NCBI RefSeq assembly: GCF_000421185.1
Contig: NZ_ATWJ01000008.1
Coordinates: 248,001-312,000 of the forward strand
DNA from: Ornithinimicrobium pekingense DSM 21552
Lineage (GTDB): Bacteria > Actinomycetota > Actinomycetes > Actinomycetales > Dermatophilaceae
Length of the DNA: 64,000 bases
Direction of reading: 5' to 3'
The notes beneath the pieces are model-generated. The model was not told the DNA's origin, searched no databases, and saw only the letters and a program-made list of their open reading frames with translations. Positions 34,163 through 42,579 of this stretch are shown here, piece by piece. How positions within the stretch are numbered: position 1 is the first letter of the stretch; each line of letters begins with the position of its first letter. The position numbers were made by a program, and so were the translations under genes.

Positions 34163-35185
34163 ATGCGCGTCCTCGTGACCGGCGGTGCCGGCTACATCGG
34201 CTCCCACACCGTCCTGCAGCTGCTCGCGGCCGGCCACGACGTGGTGGTGGTCGACGACTTTCGAAACGCCAAGCCTGCCGTGGTCGAGCGGCTCGAGGAG
34301 CTCTCCGGGCGTCACGTCCCCGTGCACGCCTTCGACGTCGCCGACCGCGACAAGCTCGACGTCGTCATGAGCGACCCGTCGGCCCCGGTCGAGGCCGTGG
34401 TGCACTTCGCCGCCCTCAAGGCGGTCGGGGAGTCGGTGGCCCGGCCGGTCGCCTACTACCGCAACAACATCGACGCGACCCTGGAGGTGGTCGACGCGAT
34501 GGTCCGCCACGGCGTGCGCCACCTGGTCTTCTCCTCCTCCGCCACGGTCTACGGCGCCGACGCACCGGTCCCGATGACCGAGGACCTGCCGACCTCGGCC
34601 ACCAACCCCTACGGCTGGACCAAGGTGATGAACGAGCAGATCCTGCGCGACGTCGTCGTGGCCCACCCCCAGCTGCGGGTCGCGCTCCTGCGCTACTTCA
34701 ACCCCGTCGGGGCCCACCCCAGCGGCCGCATCGGCGAGGACCCCTCGGACATCCCCAACAACCTCATGCCCTACGTCGCCCAGGTGGCGGTGGGCCGCCG
34801 GGAGAGGCTGTCGGTCTTCGGCGACGACTACGACACCCCGGACGGCACGGGGGTGCGCGACTACATCCACGTCGAGGACCTGGCCGCCGGCCACGTCGCG
34901 GCGCTCGACCGGATCAGCAGCCACGACCGGCCGCTGTCGGTGTGGAACCTCGGGTCGGGCACCGGCACCTCGGTGCTGGAGCTCGTGCGCGCGTTCGAGG
35001 AGGCCAGCGGGCGTCCCGTGCCCTACGAGGTGGTGGACCGCCGGCCCGGCGACGTCGCGGTCTCCTACGCCGACCCCTCCCTGGCCGAGCGGGAGCTGGG
35101 CTGGCGCACGACCCGGACGGTGCGCGACATGTGCGCCGACACCTGGCGCTGGCAGCAGGGCAACCCGGAGGGCTACCCCGGGTGA
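34163..35185 (+). CDS. galE: UDP-glucose 4-epimerase
   Basis: A 340-residue extended SDR enzyme interconverting UDP-glucose and UDP-galactose. NAD loop GGAGYIGSH at 7-15, VVVDDF for ribose binding, the Ser/Tyr/Lys site (FSSSATVYG and the later NPYGWTK), LRYFNPVGAHPSGRIGEDP and the RDYIHVEDLAAGH signature are all present. Length equals the family norm. It supplies galactose for surface polymers or the Leloir pathway. Confidence 0.95.
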   Translation: MRVLVTGGAGYIGSHTVLQLLAAGHDVVVVDDFRNAKPAVVERLEELSGRHVPVHAFDVADRDKLDVVMSDPSAPVEAVVHFAALKAVGESVARPVAYYRNNIDATLEVVDAMVRHGVRHLVFSSSATVYGADAPVPMTEDLPTSATNPYGWTKVMNEQILRDVVVAHPQLRVALLRYFNPVGAHPSGRIGEDPSDIPNNLMPYVAQVAVGRRERLSVFGDDYDTPDGTGVRDYIHVEDLAAGHVAALDRISSHDRPLSVWNLGSGTGTSVLELVRAFEEASGRPVPYEVVDRRPGDVAVSYADPSLAERELGWRTTRTVRDMCADTWRWQQGNPEGYPG

Positions 35186-35197
35186 GGCACGCCTCGC

Positions 35198-35220
35198 CTA
35201 CTACGGGACCGTCGTAGTAG
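35198..35220. promoter_or_regulatory. BlaI-type operator overlapping the blaI promoter
   Basis: CTACTACG-N7-CGTAGTAG, perfect 8-base arms. TACTAC/GTAGTA is the half-site of actinobacterial BlaI regulators. It overlaps the -10 TAGACT, so BlaI probably represses its own gene. Confidence 0.7.
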
Positions 35221-35223
35221 ACT
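35218..35223 (+). promoter_or_regulatory. -10 element TAGACT for blaI (leaderless)
   Basis: TAGACT, six bases, ATG 35230; overlaps the operator palindrome by three bases. Confidence 0.5.
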
Positions 35224-35229
35224 GACGGG

Positions 35230-35610
35230 ATGCGCCAGCGAAACACCTCCCTGGGCGACCTCGAGCGGGTCGTCATGGACACGCTGTGGTCCCACGGCCC
35301 CGAGCTGTCGGTCCGTGACGTCATGGACCACATGGGCGGCGAGAAGGACCTCGCCTACACCACGATCATGACGGTGCTGGACCGCCTCGCCAAGAAGGGG
35401 CTGGCCGACCGCACCCGCGACGGCCGCGCCTGGCGCTACACCGCGGCGTCCTCCCGCGAGGAGCTCGCGGCCACCGCGCTGCGCTCGACCCTGGAGAACG
35501 TCCAGGCCGACCGCAAGCTGGCGATGGTGCACTTCCTCGACGACGCCAGCCCTGCCGAGATCGACGACCTGCGAGCCGCACTCGCCGAGGTCGAGCGCCG
35601 CCACGGCTGA
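35230..35610 (+). CDS. blaI: BlaI/MecI/CopY family transcriptional repressor
   Basis: A 126-residue winged-helix repressor. The DNA-binding part (LGDLERVVMDTLWSHGPELSVRDVMDHM and AYTTIMTVLDRLAKKGLADRTRDGRAWRYT) is typical of the family, with a helical C-terminal dimerisation arm. Family members are inactivated by cleavage from a partner M56 peptidase, encoded here 12 bases downstream. A palindromic operator overlaps its own promoter, and a related palindrome precedes cydA, so the respiratory genes next door are probable targets. Confidence 0.9.
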   Translation: MRQRNTSLGDLERVVMDTLWSHGPELSVRDVMDHMGGEKDLAYTTIMTVLDRLAKKGLADRTRDGRAWRYTAASSREELAATALRSTLENVQADRKLAMVHFLDDASPAEIDDLRAALAEVERRHG

Positions 35611-35622
35611 CCCGGGGACAGC

Positions 35623-36546
35623 GTGACGGGCGTCGTCGTCACCGCGGCGCTGATCGTCGGCGCCCTGTTCACCGTCCTCGCCGCCCCGCACCTGCTCGCG
35701 CGCCAGACCTGGCTGCGCAGCACGCCGGGCGAGACCCTCTTCCTGTGGCAGGCCGTCGCGCTCTCCGGGGTGGTCGCCGCGCTGCTGGCCGCCCCGGTGG
35801 CCGTCCTCAGCCTGCCCACCGACCGCCCCTGGCTGCGCCTGGCCGCGTATGCCGTGTCGCTGGCCATGCTCGTCCGGCTGCTGGTCTCGGGCCACCTCGT
35901 CGGCACCGACCTGCGCCGCCGCCGGGCCGAGCACCGACAGCTCGTCGACATCCTCGGTGAGCGGATCGAGCGGACGGACGCCCGCGCGGAGGGCGTCACG
36001 GTGCTGGCCCGCGGCAACCCGACCGTCTACTGCCTGCCGGGCCGGCACGACCGCATCGTGCTCAGCCGGGAGGCGCTCGAACGCCTCGGCCCCGAGGAGC
36101 TGGACGCGGTCATGGCCCACGAGCAGGCCCACCTGAGCCAGCGGCACGACCTGCTGCTGGAGCTGTTCACCGTGCTGCACGAGGCGGTGCCCCGCCGGGT
36201 CCGCGCCGACGCGGCCCTGGACGAGGTCCACCTGCTGGCCGAGATGCTGGCCGACCGCGCGGCGGCCCGCCGGGTGGGCCCGCTGGCGCTGGCCCACGCC
36301 CTCGTCGCCATGGCCGGGGGCCACCGGGGCGACGCCGGTGGCGAGGCGGGCGGGACCGCATACCCGGGTCCTCCGGCCGGCACGCTCGCGGGAGGCACCC
36401 AGGTCACCACCCGGCTGCGCGCCTTCGCCGCCGACCCCGCCCCGGGCTGGGCGCGGGCCGGCATCTTCACCGTCGCCGTGGCCCAGCTGCTTCTGCCGGT
36501 GCTGCTCCTGCTGCCCCTGCTGTGGACTACCTCACAGTTTCTCTAG
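35623..36546 (+). CDS. M56 family membrane metallopeptidase (BlaR-like)
   Basis: A 307-residue integral membrane peptidase. Helices are predicted near 3-25, 43-62, 72-92 and at the C-terminus (FTVAVAQLLLPVLLLLPLLW). The zinc motif HEQAH follows DAVMAHEQAHLSQRHD near residue 166, and EMLADRAAA supplies the distal glutamate. Unlike BlaR1/MecR1 there is no external penicillin-binding domain, so the signal is not evident. It is the expected antirepressor of BlaI. Start GTG 35623. Confidence 0.87.
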   Translation: MTGVVVTAALIVGALFTVLAAPHLLARQTWLRSTPGETLFLWQAVALSGVVAALLAAPVAVLSLPTDRPWLRLAAYAVSLAMLVRLLVSGHLVGTDLRRRRAEHRQLVDILGERIERTDARAEGVTVLARGNPTVYCLPGRHDRIVLSREALERLGPEELDAVMAHEQAHLSQRHDLLLELFTVLHEAVPRRVRADAALDEVHLLAEMLADRAAARRVGPLALAHALVAMAGGHRGDAGGEAGGTAYPGPPAGTLAGGTQVTTRLRAFAADPAPGWARAGIFTVAVAQLLLPVLLLLPLLWTTSQFL

Positions 36547-36575
36547 ACGGCTCGGAGGCCCACGCCTCGGAGGGG

Positions 36576-36581
36576 TATGTT
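36576..36581 (+). promoter_or_regulatory. -10 element TATGTT of the cyd operon
   Basis: TATGTT lies 42 bases before GTG 36624. A leader of about 35 bases with AGGGGAG before the start codon would follow. The BlaI-like palindrome begins inside this box and covers the expected start of transcription. Confidence 0.5.
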
Positions 36582-36603
36582 ACGACTAGGTGTAGTACGT
36601 AAC
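36579..36603. promoter_or_regulatory. BlaI-like operator upstream of cydA
   Basis: Imperfect palindrome: GTTACG (36579-36584) and CGTAAC (36598-36603) surround ACTA and TAGT. The inner TAGT/ACTA half-sites resemble those of the blaI operator at 35198. Placed just after the -10, a bound repressor would block initiation. Confidence 0.55.
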
Positions 36604-36623: not shown

Positions 36624-38090
36624 GTGGACGCGTTGGACCTCGCCCGGTGGCAGTTCGGCATCACGACCGTCTACCACTACTTCTTCGTGCCGATCACCAT
36701 CGGTCTGTCCCTGCTCGTGGCCGTGATGCAGACCCGGTGGATGCAGACGCGCGACCCGCAGTGGCTGCGGCTGACGAAGTTCTTCGGCAAGCTCTTCACG
36801 ATCAACTTCGCGCTCGGGCTGGTCACCGGCATCGTCCAGGAGTTCCAGTTCGGGATGAACTGGTCGGACTACTCCCGCTTCGTCGGCGACATCTTCGGCG
36901 CGCCGCTGGCCATCGAGGCGCTGCTGGCCTTCTTCCTCGAGTCGACCTTCCTGGGCCTGTGGCTCTTCGGCTGGGGCCGGGTGCCGGAGAAGCTGCACGC
37001 CTCCTTCATCTGGCTGGTGCACATCGGCACCCTGCTGTCCGCCTACTTCATCCTCGCCGCGAACTCGTTCATGCAGAACCCCGTCGGCTACACCATCGAC
37101 GAGGCCGACGGCCGGGCCGAGCTGACCGACTTCCTCGCGGTGCTCACCAACCCGGTCCAGCTCGTCACCTTCCCGCACGTGGTCGCCGCCGCCTGGATGA
37201 CCGGCGGGGCGTTCGTGCTGGCCTTCGCCGCCTGGCACCTGTGGCGCCAGGGCACACCCCAGGCCGACAAGCCGATGTACCGCAAGGCGGCCAAGCTCGG
37301 AGCCTGGACCCTGCTCGTGGCCGGCCTGGTCGTCGCCGGCACCGGCGACCTGCAGGGCAAGGTGATGACCGAGGTCCAGCCGATGAAGATGGCCGCCGCC
37401 GAGGGCCTCTACGAGGACGTCCCCGAGGGCGTCGGCGCGCCGTTCTCGATCATCACGGTCGGCACCCTCGACGGCCGCGAGGAGGTCTGGGCGCTGACCG
37501 TGCCCAAGCTGCTCTCCTACCTGGCGACCGGCTCGCTCGAGGGCGAGGTCGAGGGCATCGACCACATCCAGGAGCGCTACGAGCTGACCTACGCCGGCGC
37601 CGAGCTCACCGCCGCCGACGACTACCGGCCGGTCGTGCCGGTCACCTACTGGAGCTTCCGGCTCATGATGGGCCTGGGCTTCGCGGGTATGGCGATCGCC
37701 GCCGCCGTGCTCTGGGCGCTGCGTGGTCACGGCTCCGAGGTCGGCGAGACGCGGCTGGAGGGCAGCCCCTGGTGGGGCCGCGCGGCGGCCGTCGTGCTCT
37801 TCCTGCCGCTGCTGGCGAACAGCTTCGGGTGGGTCTTCACCGAGATGGGCCGCCAGCCCTGGCTCGTCATGGGCCTGATGACCACGCAGACCGGTGTCTC
37901 CCCCGGCACCACGACCGGCGAGGTCGTGACCTCGTTGGTCGTCTTCACCCTGCTCTACGGCGCGCTCGCGGTCGTCATGGTCGGCCTCACGCTGCGCTAC
38001 GGACGCGCCGGCGCCGAGCAGGTGCCGGAGGACGCGTCGTACGACCCGGCGACCCGCTCCGACGACGAGCCGTTCGTCTTCACCTACTGA
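36624..38090 (+). CDS. cydA: Cytochrome bd ubiquinol/menaquinol oxidase subunit I
   Basis: A 488-residue heme-bearing membrane subunit of the bd-type terminal oxidase, which reduces oxygen with quinol electrons. Expected ligands are visible: His in TTVYHYFFVP near residue 19 (heme b595), His in TFPHVVAAAWMTGG near 185 and the later Met in PWLVMGLMTTQTG (heme b558). Acidic residues for proton uptake are in IEALLAFFLESTFLG, and the quinol-site QPMKMAAAEG is present. The Q-loop is the short type usual in actinobacteria. A GTG start follows AGGGGAG. Confidence 0.95.
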   Translation: MDALDLARWQFGITTVYHYFFVPITIGLSLLVAVMQTRWMQTRDPQWLRLTKFFGKLFTINFALGLVTGIVQEFQFGMNWSDYSRFVGDIFGAPLAIEALLAFFLESTFLGLWLFGWGRVPEKLHASFIWLVHIGTLLSAYFILAANSFMQNPVGYTIDEADGRAELTDFLAVLTNPVQLVTFPHVVAAAWMTGGAFVLAFAAWHLWRQGTPQADKPMYRKAAKLGAWTLLVAGLVVAGTGDLQGKVMTEVQPMKMAAAEGLYEDVPEGVGAPFSIITVGTLDGREEVWALTVPKLLSYLATGSLEGEVEGIDHIQERYELTYAGAELTAADDYRPVVPVTYWSFRLMMGLGFAGMAIAAAVLWALRGHGSEVGETRLEGSPWWGRAAAVVLFLPLLANSFGWVFTEMGRQPWLVMGLMTTQTGVSPGTTTGEVVTSLVVFTLLYGALAVVMVGLTLRYGRAGAEQVPEDASYDPATRSDDEPFVFTY

Positions 38091-38129: not shown

Positions 38130-39200
38130 ATGGAACTGACCACGATCTGGTTCGTCCTCATCGCCGTGCTGTGGATCGGCTACTTCGTCCTCGAGGGCTT
38201 CGACTACGGTGTCGGCGCGCTGCTGCCCGTCCTGGGCCGGGACGAGACCCGGCGACGGCAGATGCTCGGCTCGATCGGCCCGTTCTGGGACGGCAACGAG
38301 GTGTGGCTGCTCACCGCCGGCGGGGCGACCTTCGCCGCCTTCCCGCACTGGTACGCCACGCTCTTCTCCGGCTTCTACCTGCCGCTGCTGCTGATCCTCG
38401 TGGCGCTCATCGTGCGCGGCATCGGCCTGGAGTACCGCGGCAAGGTCGACTCGACCTCCTGGCGCCGCCGCATGGACCTGATGATCATCGGCGGGTCGGC
38501 GGTGCCGGCGCTGCTCTGGGGCGTGGCCTTCACCAACATCGTGCGCGGCGTGCCGATCGACGCGCAGATGGAGTACGTCGGCGGGTTCTGGGACCTGCTG
38601 AACCCGGTCGCCCTGCTCGGCGGGCTGGTGACGCTGACGCTGTTCCTGACCCACGGCGCGCTCTTCGTCGCGCTCAAGACCGACGGGGCGCTGCGGCACG
38701 ACGCCCGCGCCCTCGGCGTCCGGCTGGGTGTCGTCGCGGCGGCGCTCGCGGTCGTCTGGCTGTGGCTGGTGCACTCCTCGACCGGTGGCCTCGTCTCGGG
38801 CACCCTTGCGGTGCTGGCTGCCGCGGCCCTGGTCGCCGGCCTGCTGGCCGCGCGCACCGGCCGGGAGGGCTGGGCCTTCACCGGCACGTTCGTGGCGATC
38901 GCCCTGGCCACCGCGTCGTTGTTCGTCGCGCTCTTCCCCGACGTCATGCCCTCCACGCTCGACCCCGCGTGGTCGCTGACCGTCGACAACGCCGCGTCCT
39001 CGGCCAAGACCCTCGGGATCATGACCTGGGTCGCGGTCGTCTTCACCCCGATCGTCCTGCTCTACCAGTCGTGGACCTACTGGACGTTCCGCAGGCGGAT
39101 CTCCGGGCACCACATCCCTACCGACGTGCACCACGCGGCGGTGACGGCCGAGACCCGTCAGGGCTCCGACCGCCCGGACCGGCCGCTGACCTCGGCCTGA
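38130..39200 (+). CDS. cydB: Cytochrome bd oxidase subunit II
   Basis: A 356-residue membrane partner of CydA. The opening LTTIWFVLIAVLWIGYFVLEGFDYGVGALLP and IGPFWDGNEVWLLTAGGATFAAFPHWYATLFSGFYLPLLL are highly typical, and about eight to nine helices can be seen. It carries no heme but is needed for assembly. AAAGGAA precedes ATG 38130, and the cydDC fusion follows seven bases after the stop. Confidence 0.95.
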   Translation: MELTTIWFVLIAVLWIGYFVLEGFDYGVGALLPVLGRDETRRRQMLGSIGPFWDGNEVWLLTAGGATFAAFPHWYATLFSGFYLPLLLILVALIVRGIGLEYRGKVDSTSWRRRMDLMIIGGSAVPALLWGVAFTNIVRGVPIDAQMEYVGGFWDLLNPVALLGGLVTLTLFLTHGALFVALKTDGALRHDARALGVRLGVVAAALAVVWLWLVHSSTGGLVSGTLAVLAAAALVAGLLAARTGREGWAFTGTFVAIALATASLFVALFPDVMPSTLDPAWSLTVDNAASSAKTLGIMTWVAVVFTPIVLLYQSWTYWTFRRRISGHHIPTDVHHAAVTAETRQGSDRPDRPLTSA

Positions 39201-39207
39201 GAGCCCG

Positions 39208-42200
39208 ATGCGCCCGTTCGACCCCGCCCTGGTCCGCTCGCTGCCCGCCACCCGGTGGCCCGTGGCCCGGCTGGCGGCCGTCGGTGTCCTCTCGGGGGTG
39301 GTCGCGATCGCCCAGGCCCTCCTGCTCGCACTGGTCGTCGGCCGGGTGGTCTCCGGCGGCCCGCTCGGGCCGGTGCTCGGCTGGCTGGTCGGCGTCCTCG
39401 TCCTGCGCGGGGTGCTGGCGGGCGTCTCGGAGCGGGTCGCGCGCCGCGCCGGGCAACGGGTCGCGGGGGAGGTGCGCGCCGCCACGCTGCGCTCGTGGCT
39501 GGGCCGGCCGGTCGAGCGACGGCCGGCCGACGAGGTCGCGGTGACCCGGGCGACGGAGGGCGTCTCGGCCGTCGAGCCCTACGTCGGGCGCTACCTTCCC
39601 GCCCTCGTCACCGCGGCTGTGGTGCCCGCCCTGACCGTCGTGGCGCTGCTCGTCGTCGACCCGTGGAGCGCGCTCGTCGTCGTCCTGACGCTGCCGCTGC
39701 TGCCGGTGTTCGCCGCCCTGATCGGGCGGCACACCCAGGACCAGACGGAGCGCCGGTGGGGAGCGATGTCGCTGCTGGCGGGGCACTTCCTGGACGTGGT
39801 GCGCGGGCTGCCCACGCTGGTGGCCTACGGGCGCGCCCGGGCCCAGGTCGACGTCGTGCGGGCCGTCGGCGAGCGCCACCGCGAGGCCACGGTCCGCACC
39901 CTGCGGACAGCCTTCCTCTCGACCGCGGCGCTGGAGCTGCTCGCCACGATCTCGGTGGCCATGGTCGCGGTCGCGGTCGGTCTGCGGCTGGCCTACGGCG
40001 CGATGGACCTGGTGGTCGGCCTGGCCGCCATCCTCCTCGCGCCCGAGGCCTACTGGCCGGTGCGTCGCGTCGGCGCTGAGTTCCACAACGCCGCCGACGG
40101 TGCGACGACGCTCGAGGCGCTGCGGGCCGACGGCGTGCTGGGAGGCGAGCCCGCCCACGCCGACGAGCCCGCGCGTGCCGGTGTCGTGCTCCGCGACGTC
40201 TCCTATGCCCACCCCGGTCGCGGGCGCACGGTCGCGGGCGTCACCCTCACCACGCCGTCGACCCCGGGCCTGACCGTGCTCACCGGACCTTCCGGCGCCG
40301 GCAAGACGACCGTGCTCGAGCTGCTCGCGGGACTGCGCGTCCCGGCGTCCGGCACGGTCGTCGCCCCGCCCGCGCACCTGGCCGCCCAGCGTCCGCTCAT
40401 CCTCCCGGGCAGCGTGCGGGACAACCTCGCGCTCGCCGGTGGCAGCCTTGACGTCGACGGGTCCGCGGCCGACGCCGCGATGGTCGCCGCCCTGGACAGG
40501 GTCGGTCTCTGGGCTGCCCTGGCCGACCGCGAGGGGCTGGGCACCGTGCTGGGCGACGAGGGCTTCGGCCTGTCGGCGGGCCAGCGCACGCGGCTCGCCC
40601 TGGCCCGCGCCCTCCTCAGCGACGCGCCGCTGCTGCTGCTCGACGAGCCGACCGCCAACGTCGCCGCCTCTTCCGTGCCGCTGCTGCACGAGGTGATCCG
40701 GGGGCTGGCGGCCGGGCGCCGCGTCGTCGTGGTGACCCACGACCCGGCCCTGGCCGCCCTGGCCGACGACCGCTGGGAGCTCACGCCTCTCCCGCTGCAG
40801 GACCCTCGTGCCGTTCTGTCGTGTCACGGGCGTCGCCAGGGCGACCGGCGTGACACGACGGAGCCGTCGCAGGATGCGGAGGCACCGGCCGGCCAGACCG
40901 CCGTCCCCGGTCACGTCGAGCCGATCGCCACCCCGGGCGGACGTCACGGTCTGTGGCTGGCCTGCGCCCTGGGTGGCGCCTCCGTGGCGTGCGGGGTGGC
41001 CCTCACCGCGACGTCCGGGTGGCTCATCGTCCAGGCCTCGACGATGCCGGTCATCCTCACGCTCATGGTCGCGATCGTCGGCGTGCGCGCCTTCGGTCTC
41101 TTCCGGCCGGTCTTCCGCTACGCCGAGCGCGTGGTCTCCCACGACGTGGCGCTCGAGGACCTGGCCGGGCGCCGCGCCGACGTCTTCGCCCGGCTCGTGC
41201 CGCTGACCCCGGCCCGGTTGGGCCGGCGCAGCCGCGGCGAGGTGCTGACGGCCGTCGTCCGTGACCTCGACGACGTCGTCGACGAGCAGGTGCGCGTCAC
41301 GGTGCCCGCGTGGTCGGCGCTCGTCGCCTCGGTCACCGGCGCGGCCCTCGCCGCCTGGCACCTGCCCGCCGCGGGCGCCGTCGTGGCGGGCGGCGCCCTG
41401 CTCACGCTCGGTCTGGCCGCCTCCGGGTATGCCGCGGAGCGCGCGGCCCAGCAGGACGCGGTCGAATCCCGGGGGCAGCTGCAGCACCGCGTGACCGCGC
41501 TGACGGGCCGGCTGCTCGCGGTGCAGGCTGTGACCGGGCTCCACGCCGACCGCACCGTGCTGCTGGCCGGTGTCGCACGTGCGGAGCAGGCCCAGCAGCG
41601 GGCGGAGGCCCGGCTCGTCACCGCCCGGGCGGTCGTGCTCGCCCTGGTGTGGTGCGTCGTCGCCGGCACGACGGCCCTCGTCGCCGTCCTGGTCCGGGAG
41701 GCGCACGCTGCCGGCGGGCTGGGCGGCCCCTCCGCCGCACTGGTCGCCCTGGTCCCGATGGCACTGGCCGACACCTGGGTGGGCGCGGCTGACGTCGCCG
41801 GGGCCCGGGCCCGCGCCCGTGCGGCCGCCGCTCGGCTCGCCGCGGTCCTGGGGCAGTCCCCGGCCGTGCGGGGCCACGGCACCCAGGAGCCCGCCGCGAC
41901 GGATGTCCCCACGCTCACGCTCGACGGCGTCGGCGCCTCGTGGGAGGCACGCGGCTCCCTCGACCTCGCGCCGCTGGACCTGGACCTGGCCCCGGGCAGC
42001 CGGGTCGCGCTCGCCGGGCCCAACGGTGCGGGGAAGTCCACCGCGCTCGCCGTGCTCGCACGGCACCTGGACCCGCTGTGCGGCCGCTACGCCCTGGACC
42101 GTGCCGACGTGCTCGACCTCGAGCTGGAGCGCACCCGCGCGCGGATCGCGGTCGTCGACGACGAGCCGCATGCGTTCGCAGGGTCCGTGCGGGCCAACCT

Positions 42201-42579
42201 CGTGCTGGCCCGCCAGGACGCCACCGACGAGGAGGTCGTGGCCGCGCTGCGGGCGGTGGACCTCGGGCACTGGTACGCCACGCTCCCCCAGGGCCTCGAC
42301 ACCCTGCTGACCGGGCTGTCCGGAGGTGAGCGGAGCCGGCTCTCCCTCGCCCGCGCGGTGCTCTCCGGCAGACCGGTCGTCCTGCTCGACGAGCCCGCCG
42401 CGCACCTCGACGACGCGACGGCCGAGCGGGCGCTGGGGGGTCTGCTGTCCGCGCCGGGTGCGGACCGCCGGACCCACGTCATGGTCAGCCACCGCCCCGG
42501 GGACCTGTCCGGCTGGCGCACGACAGGCCTGCACGCCGAGCGGCGGACCACGGGTGCCGCGACCGTCCCGGTGCCCTGA
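39208..42579 (+). CDS. cydDC: Fused thiol-reductant ABC exporter CydDC
   Basis: A 1123-residue fusion of two ABC half-exporters. The first half (CydD-like, 1-530) has six helices, Walker A GPSGAGKTT and Walker B LLLLDEPTANV. The second half (CydC-like, about 565-1123) has its own helices (ATSGWLIVQASTMPVILTLMVAIVGVRAF), Walker A GPNGAGKST, signature LSGGERSRLSLARA and LLDEPAAHLDD. CydDC exports glutathione/cysteine-like reductants needed for cytochrome bd assembly. The linker (about 530-565) contains a DNA palindrome. In E. coli the two halves are separate proteins. Confidence 0.92.
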   Translation: MRPFDPALVRSLPATRWPVARLAAVGVLSGVVAIAQALLLALVVGRVVSGGPLGPVLGWLVGVLVLRGVLAGVSERVARRAGQRVAGEVRAATLRSWLGRPVERRPADEVAVTRATEGVSAVEPYVGRYLPALVTAAVVPALTVVALLVVDPWSALVVVLTLPLLPVFAALIGRHTQDQTERRWGAMSLLAGHFLDVVRGLPTLVAYGRARAQVDVVRAVGERHREATVRTLRTAFLSTAALELLATISVAMVAVAVGLRLAYGAMDLVVGLAAILLAPEAYWPVRRVGAEFHNAADGATTLEALRADGVLGGEPAHADEPARAGVVLRDVSYAHPGRGRTVAGVTLTTPSTPGLTVLTGPSGAGKTTVLELLAGLRVPASGTVVAPPAHLAAQRPLILPGSVRDNLALAGGSLDVDGSAADAAMVAALDRVGLWAALADREGLGTVLGDEGFGLSAGQRTRLALARALLSDAPLLLLDEPTANVAASSVPLLHEVIRGLAAGRRVVVVTHDPALAALADDRWELTPLPLQDPRAVLSCHGRRQGDRRDTTEPSQDAEAPAGQTAVPGHVEPIATPGGRHGLWLACALGGASVACGVALTATSGWLIVQASTMPVILTLMVAIVGVRAFGLFRPVFRYAERVVSHDVALEDLAGRRADVFARLVPLTPARLGRRSRGEVLTAVVRDLDDVVDEQVRVTVPAWSALVASVTGAALAAWHLPAAGAVVAGGALLTLGLAASGYAAERAAQQDAVESRGQLQHRVTALTGRLLAVQAVTGLHADRTVLLAGVARAEQAQQRAEARLVTARAVVLALVWCVVAGTTALVAVLVREAHAAGGLGGPSAALVALVPMALADTWVGAADVAGARARARAAAARLAAVLGQSPAVRGHGTQEPAATDVPTLTLDGVGASWEARGSLDLAPLDLDLAPGSRVALAGPNGAGKSTALAVLARHLDPLCGRYALDRADVLDLELERTRARIAVVDDEPHAFAGSVRANLVLARQDATDEEVVAALRAVDLGHWYATLPQGLDTLLTGLSGGERSRLSLARAVLSGRPVVLLDEPAAHLDDATAERALGGLLSAPGADRRTHVMVSHRPGDLSGWRTTGLHAERRTTGAATVPVP
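40818..40859. repeat. Palindrome in the coding linker between the CydD and CydC halves
   Basis: GTCGTGTCACG (40818-40828) and its exact complement (40849-40859) enclose a second pair GTCGCC/GGCGAC (40832-40837, 40840-40845). It encodes roughly residues 537-551 of the fusion. Such a structure is expected between genes, so it may be the relic of an intergenic terminator or an inserted repeat. Confidence 0.55.

Follow-up and report, generated by a model that had tools for sequence, protein, structure and literature searches.

A BlaI-type repressor and a sensorless BlaR1-like peptidase as a likely switch for cytochrome bd in Ornithinimicrobium pekingense

In a 64,000-nucleotide stretch of the Ornithinimicrobium pekingense DSM 21552 genome (hereafter the window), the genes for a BlaI-type repressor and a membrane metallopeptidase stand immediately ahead of the genes for cytochrome bd. 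The repressor and protease motifs are intact, the peptidase lacks a sensor domain, and the cydA promoter carries an operator that is conserved in relatives. We consider it likely, from sequence comparison, that BlaI and this sensorless BlaR1-like peptidase together switch the cytochrome bd operon, with the peptidase cleaving BlaI upon a signal.

All genes of the locus lie on the forward strand. A galE-like epimerase gene (34163-35185) precedes blaI, which encodes a winged-helix repressor (35230-35610) and is followed by the gene for the 307-residue peptidase (35623-36546). The peptidase stop codon lies 77 nt from the start of the codirectional cydA, which encodes cytochrome bd subunit I (36624-38090; PF01654, 549.5 bits); subunit II is encoded by cydB (38130-39200; PF02322, TIGR00203). 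CydDC is an exporter needed for the assembly of cytochrome bd. Here cydD and cydC are fused into a single open frame of 1123 amino acids (39208-42579), which scores above the cut-offs of both TIGR02857 and TIGR02868. The nearest named relative as judged by BlaI, Serinicoccus kebangsaanensis (L244; 77% identity), has an identical gene order.

The blaI product belongs to the BlaI/MecI/CopY family, matching PF03965 at 98.7 bits (cut-off 22.6), and a profile search of the whole genome found it to be the sole PF03965 protein. Its nearest solved structure is 2g9w (E 8e-26), which we take to be M. tuberculosis BlaI. His101 and Phe102 (codons at 35530-35535) align with the cleavage site of S. aureus BlaI, and all 12 BlaI sequences compared from the family have His101, Phe102 and Leu103. 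The S. aureus protein is cut between Asn101 and Phe102, according to an excerpt of PMC9834060.

The peptidase contains four hydrophobic segments, and its chain stops after the last of them. The zinc-binding active-site motif HEQAH (36118-36132) was recognized as a sequence motif and by alignment: all 30 aligned sequences have H166, E167, H170 and E207, and HExxH is invariant in these 30 and in all 79 of the 79 peptidase relatives. As in BlaR1, this motif lies between transmembrane helices of a membrane protease. The original prediction had described an M56 peptidase without a beta-lactam sensor, and we confirmed that no extracellular penicillin-binding sensor domain is present in the hydrophobic segments and chain end, in the predicted structure (mean pLDDT 88.5) or in the alignment with BlaR1, which spans BlaR1 residues 6-286 only. 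By VIA-align, the best match of the peptidase model is S. aureus BlaR1 (Z 11.9, r.m.s.d. 4.7, 212 residues), a Z score that helical models reach easily, and Ste24-type M48 proteases score Z 10 to 11. Foldseek alone returned no match to the model at E 0.001, and a sequence search found no solved relative at E 1. Pfam places the protein at the border of two families, with 26.9 bits for M56 (cut-off 31) and 31.1 bits for M48 (cut-off 20.3). Because profile and structure scores are thus mixed between M48 and M56, we call the peptidase BlaR1-like and leave its family label undecided. A Tyr-Cys-x-Pro motif occurs in 75 of the 79 peptidase relatives; its cysteine is Cys137, in the protease domain.

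Upstream of cydA, the conservation among relatives delineates a predicted BlaI-type operator, TACGAC-TAGGT-GTAGTA (36581-36597), which differs by one mismatch from TACTAC-N5-GTAGTA; no other N5 site in the window comes within two mismatches of that motif. It overlaps the likely -10 box of cydA, TATGTT (36576-36581, forward strand), which was called by eye from the alignment with relatives. The cydA promoters of relatives carry TACTAC-N5-GTAGTA just past the likely -10 box, often as two copies 19 nt apart; the window has a single operator where many relatives have two. The original prediction had drawn this operator by its outer arms, GTTACG (36579-36584) and CGTAAC (36598-36603), directly 3' of TATGTT. 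The letters are present, but the outline was wrong: inverted 6-bp arms with a spacing of exactly 13 occur 46 times in the 64-kb window, and the arms are altered in near relatives (CTTACG...CGTCCC in G158, ATTACG...CGCATC in G152). We therefore regard the outer arms as coincidental and rejected them as the operator, the conserved element being TACGAC-N5-GTAGTA.

To relate this element to BlaI, we compared 133 cydA upstream regions of the family (30 loci and 103 further stretches). Of the 134 family genomes with cydA, G017 and G093 (contig ends) and G082 (partial gene) yielded no region, while G144 contributed two. BlaI was scored as absent when no match to the window's BlaI was found at E 1e-20, a definition that allows for other PF03965 proteins. 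The operator TACTAC-N5-GTAGTA (at most two mismatches, within 250 nt) was found in 100 of 100 cydA regions (99 genomes) with a BlaI homologue, 35 of them exact, 53 with one mismatch and 12 with two, versus 1 of 32 regions without one, the other 31 having at least four mismatches; because the genomes are related, these counts are not independent. One member each of genera g33 and g26 is without a BlaI match, and these two genomes (G131, G096) are also without the operator. The single exception, G046 (L211, G046:C192:4318-4828), is a draft genome with an exact operator at cydA, on a 9.7 kb contig, and no BlaI match.

The spacing of the half-sites was examined in 101 regions, which include the second cydA of G127, counted apart from the 100 and 32 regions above. 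This second gene (L122, G127:C1:2163279-2163789) lies far from blaI and has a one-mismatch operator upstream. A spacing of 5 accounts for all 101; with spacings of 2 and 8 the figures are 65 and 76, which we read as register shifts of the TAC repeat, and with spacing 9, as in the blaI palindrome described below, only 5 regions match. The best of 59 permuted half-sites covers 3 of 101 regions. Among 200 random half-sites the best, TACTAG, is a near copy of the motif and covers 50 of 101, with the next best covering 20.

The blaI and cyd genes are also physically linked. A BlaI homologue (E 1e-20) is found in 108 of 149 family genomes, and in 96 of these blaI and cydA share a strand and lie no more than 12 kb apart, with blaI downstream in 88 and upstream in 8, all 8 belonging to the window's genus. 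The remaining 12 comprise 6 genomes without a cydA match and 6 with cydA elsewhere. In a scan of named genomes across actinobacteria, for which the best 80 of 591 relatives were kept, cydA lies near blaI in 40 loci: 13 with cyd then blaI, 3 with blaI then cyd, and 24 divergent, the last including Kribbella, Nocardioides, Aeromicrobium, Microlunatus and Kineosporia. The operator stands upstream of cydA in every one of these 40, with at most one mismatch in 37. The other 40 of these best 80 show no visible cydA (many are mycobacteria, and some are cut contigs), and in 33 of them the operator lies upstream of blaI with at most two mismatches. Literature searches on BlaI with cytochrome bd, cydA or cydAB returned no report of blaI adjoining cyd among the matches listed, as far as their excerpts go, and none was found that pairs the BlaI family with cydAB. 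Neither the linkage nor the exact operator, nor how widely it is conserved, was met in the searches made.

The M. tuberculosis BlaI-BlaR pair (Rv1846c-Rv1845c) shares with the window's pair a similar BlaI (nearest structure 2g9w). Its BlaR likewise has no sensor domain, according to an excerpt of PMC5473688, and the same operator type as in the window occurs in two other mycobacteria, M. triplex and M. interjectum. Searched with the motif derived from the window's family, these two genomes contain 8 and 7 sites (at most one mismatch) versus 39 and 28 for a reversed control, so the counts alone show nothing. Both genomes have sites 20-27 nt upstream of cydA, where a COX15/CtaA gene begins, about 220 nt before an ATP-synthase I gene, which the A chain follows, and upstream of blaI. 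A mycobacterial-type BlaI is marked by TACTAC/TACGAC-N5-GTAGTA at its target promoters, and such sites are present here as predictions from the DNA letters. The targets overlap BlaI targets published for M. tuberculosis, as far as excerpts show, among which the ATP-synthase operon was tested by electrophoretic mobility shift assay (excerpt of PMC12565901). The idea of BlaI acting on cytochrome bd is not wholly new, because the excerpt of PMC5473688 states, citing Sala 2009, that BlaI binds the cytochrome bd promoter in M. tuberculosis. The M. tuberculosis pair is, however, described as a beta-lactamase regulator, and in the mycobacterial loci examined blaI is not beside cyd, whereas the window's blaI belongs to the cyd locus. 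The only class A beta-lactamase match in the window's genome is marginal (PF13354, 25.1 bits, cut-off 22, in a 641-codon frame), and in this search for class A enzymes none of the nine near-match operator sites of the genome adjoins that frame. Depriving an M. tuberculosis chalkophore mutant of copper upregulates cydABDC, qcrABC and ATP-synthase genes; the excerpt of PMC12140626 that reports this makes no mention of BlaI.

The comparison thus strongly supports the original prediction that BlaI controls cytochrome bd, through the operator counts in regions with and without BlaI, the linkage and the mycobacterial cydA motif; that prediction was right in substance, for a partly wrong reason. Direct repression of cydABDC by BlaI, as predicted from these data, is well supported by comparison because operator and BlaI co-occur, the genes are linked, the motif recurs in mycobacteria, and the sensorless protease is intact.

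The blaI promoter of the window is covered by a perfect palindrome, CTACTACG-N7-CGTAGTAG (35198-35220), which contains TACTAC-N9-GTAGTA and ends 9 nt ahead of the blaI ATG. It is unlikely to have arisen by chance, because the pattern has only one match in the 3.85 Mb genome and because it alone, among 46 perfect 8-bp inverted repeats in the window (spacer 3-12), has at least four A/T in an arm. The blaI and cydA sites have the half-sites TAC[T/G]AC and GTAGTA in common, with a spacing of 9 at blaI versus 5 at cydA, and in the 300 nt upstream of the window's blaI no N5 match has fewer than five mismatches. Of 30 genus loci, 4 carry a palindrome of the blaI half-site (at most one mismatch, spacing 3-12) upstream of blaI, with a spacing of 9 in the window, 8 in G158 and G152, and 6 in G151. 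Judged by eye, weaker CTAC...GTAG pairs occupy the same position in several other genus members, and pairs resembling TCCTAC-N5-GTAGGA occur farther upstream in more distant ones. Of the BlaI-type operator claimed earlier for this promoter, the exact and unique palindrome stands; its identity in type with the cydA site was not established, given the spacing of 9 and the five mismatches of the best N5 match. BlaI autoregulation through this possible site is less sure, because the palindrome differs in spacing and a comparable one is present in only 4 of 30 genus loci, and we regard it as no more than plausible.

Across the genome, the motif with at most one mismatch has 9 sites versus 9 for the reversed control, and at two mismatches 40 versus 170; the N9 pattern at three mismatches has 36 versus 28. 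In most other genus members the reversed control exceeds the motif, among the matches listed. In the genome-wide half-site search proposed with the original prediction, the motif was thus no commoner than its reversal, and we rejected a regulon drawn from own-genome counts alone.

Individual sites are nevertheless recorded here as observations. A one-mismatch site (L080, G000:C9:284082-284098) immediately precedes a radical SAM gene (TIGR04053, 503 bits, over cut-off), for which the next best model, the heme b synthase AhbD, is below cut-off. Two sites of the genome recur in G158 before orthologous genes: L079 (G000:C9:250923) with L361, before M20 peptidase/DUF3043, and L085 (G000:C13:166442) with L365, before a translation-GTPase-like gene named by eye. 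In relatives, among the matches listed, sites precede genes for arginine deiminase, pyruvate phosphate dikinase, universal stress proteins, zinc alcohol dehydrogenases and pyridoxamine-phosphate-oxidase-like proteins (L096, L098, L105, L120, L121, L363, L366, L369, L370, L371), these targets being the nearest plausible frames by start distance and GC3 rather than annotated genes. Proteins of about 197 residues with similar N-termini are encoded just downstream of exact sites at L109, L112, L114 and L115; they match no Pfam family at cut-off and give one weak DoxX score. In G158, a one-mismatch site (L362, G158:C1:1896300-1898500) lies 36 nt before a gene for a CueP-type periplasmic copper-binding protein, a possible pointer to a copper signal. 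Among the matches listed, exact sites are absent in all sampled members of g3, g12, g14 and g36, which are without a BlaI match, and also in BlaI-bearing genera such as g18. The wider predicted sites resemble a low-oxygen and energy-metabolism regulon, which we treat as a lead and not a result.

We infer BlaI binding, repression, cleavage and induction at the cyd locus as follows. As its conservation suggests, TACGAC-N5-GTAGTA over the likely -10 box and start region of cydA would be bound by a BlaI dimer, repressing cydABDC. The peptidase would be activated by a respiratory-chain or membrane signal and, by homology, would then cleave BlaI, probably at His101-Phe102, much as S. aureus BlaR1 acts at Asn101-Phe102. 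With BlaI lost, cydABDC would be transcribed; more doubtfully, BlaI may also control its own gene through the palindrome at 35198-35220. That the peptidase responds to a respiratory or membrane input is plausible, and a copper or oxidase-failure signal is a guess.

Other explanations differ in what they make of the signal, the binding protein or the site. The pair could sense cell-wall stress, as suggested for mycobacteria, with cytochrome bd as one target and the respiratory link as output rather than input. Amoxicillin with clavulanate does induce both blaI-blaR and cydAB in M. tuberculosis (excerpt of PMC5473688), but the window's peptidase has no sensor domain and the genome's marginal beta-lactamase frame has no near-match site beside it, and we judge this explanation unlikely. 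It seems to us a little less probable still that a different regulator binds the N5 operator at cydA, with BlaI merely linked and kept or lost with the operon. BlaI is named as the binder wholly by comparison, and G046 has the operator with no BlaI match at E 1e-20. Yet in mycobacteria whose blaI lies away from cyd the motif also stands before blaI and before the ATP-synthase genes, whose operon is the assayed M. tuberculosis BlaI target (PMC12565901, in excerpt), and BlaI and operator were lost together within two genera.

As for the sites themselves, cydABDC might be driven solely by read-through from the blaI promoter, the cydA-proximal site being idle. The codirectional genes, the 77-nt gap and the perfect palindrome at the blaI promoter are compatible with such an arrangement, which becomes very improbable in view of the cydA N5 operator persisting in loci with blaI divergent from cyd or downstream of it, and of the blaI palindrome being absent in most of the genus. 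That the cydA palindrome is a functionless chance repeat deserves hardly any credence: its outer arms are indeed of the common, unconserved type, but the inner N5 element is conserved in its promoter position among the BlaI-bearing relatives compared.

We thus retain a BlaI-peptidase switch for cytochrome bd as the likely explanation, and offer a broader proposal tentatively, as something possible that we would not presume. The actinobacterial sensorless BlaI-M56 pair may be primarily a respiratory switch, with cytochrome bd as its core target and the peptidase reading the state of the respiratory chain at the membrane. Under this proposal, ATP synthase, heme A synthesis and low-oxygen genes would have been added in some lineages, and beta-lactamase control would be a mycobacterial sideline. 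The input would possibly be failure of the copper-dependent oxidase branch, and the nearly invariant Cys137 of Tyr-Cys-x-Pro would be a candidate redox or metal contact.

The window's pair can be set beside systems of similar design. S. aureus BlaI-BlaR1 and MecI share its repressor family, the membrane HExxH protease and the Phe at the cleavage position (excerpt of PMC9834060), but BlaR1 has an extracellular beta-lactam sensor that the window's peptidase is missing, and the operator sequence and targets differ. In cyanobacteria, a BlaI-like regulator and a BlaR1-like protease, PetR-PetP, swap plastocyanin for cytochrome c6 according to copper (PMC7896320, a commentary, in excerpt). By analogy of design, this system, which likewise acts on electron-transport proteins, provides an earlier example of a pair of this kind in electron transport, although its targets and organisms are different and its signal is copper. 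SigC and OxyR (Corynebacterium glutamicum) and SenX3-RegX3 (mycobacteria) control the same bd operon and belong to unrelated protein families.

Cytochrome bd matters for low-oxygen growth and for tolerance of respiratory drugs, and its control in actinobacteria is only partly understood. At a locus that physically joins the pair to cydABDC, with its operator delimited precisely and with relatives that include Serinicoccus and Kribbella, the questions of control and sensing become directly testable. If true, a family named for resistance would be recast as a regulator of electron transport, in line with PetR-PetP.
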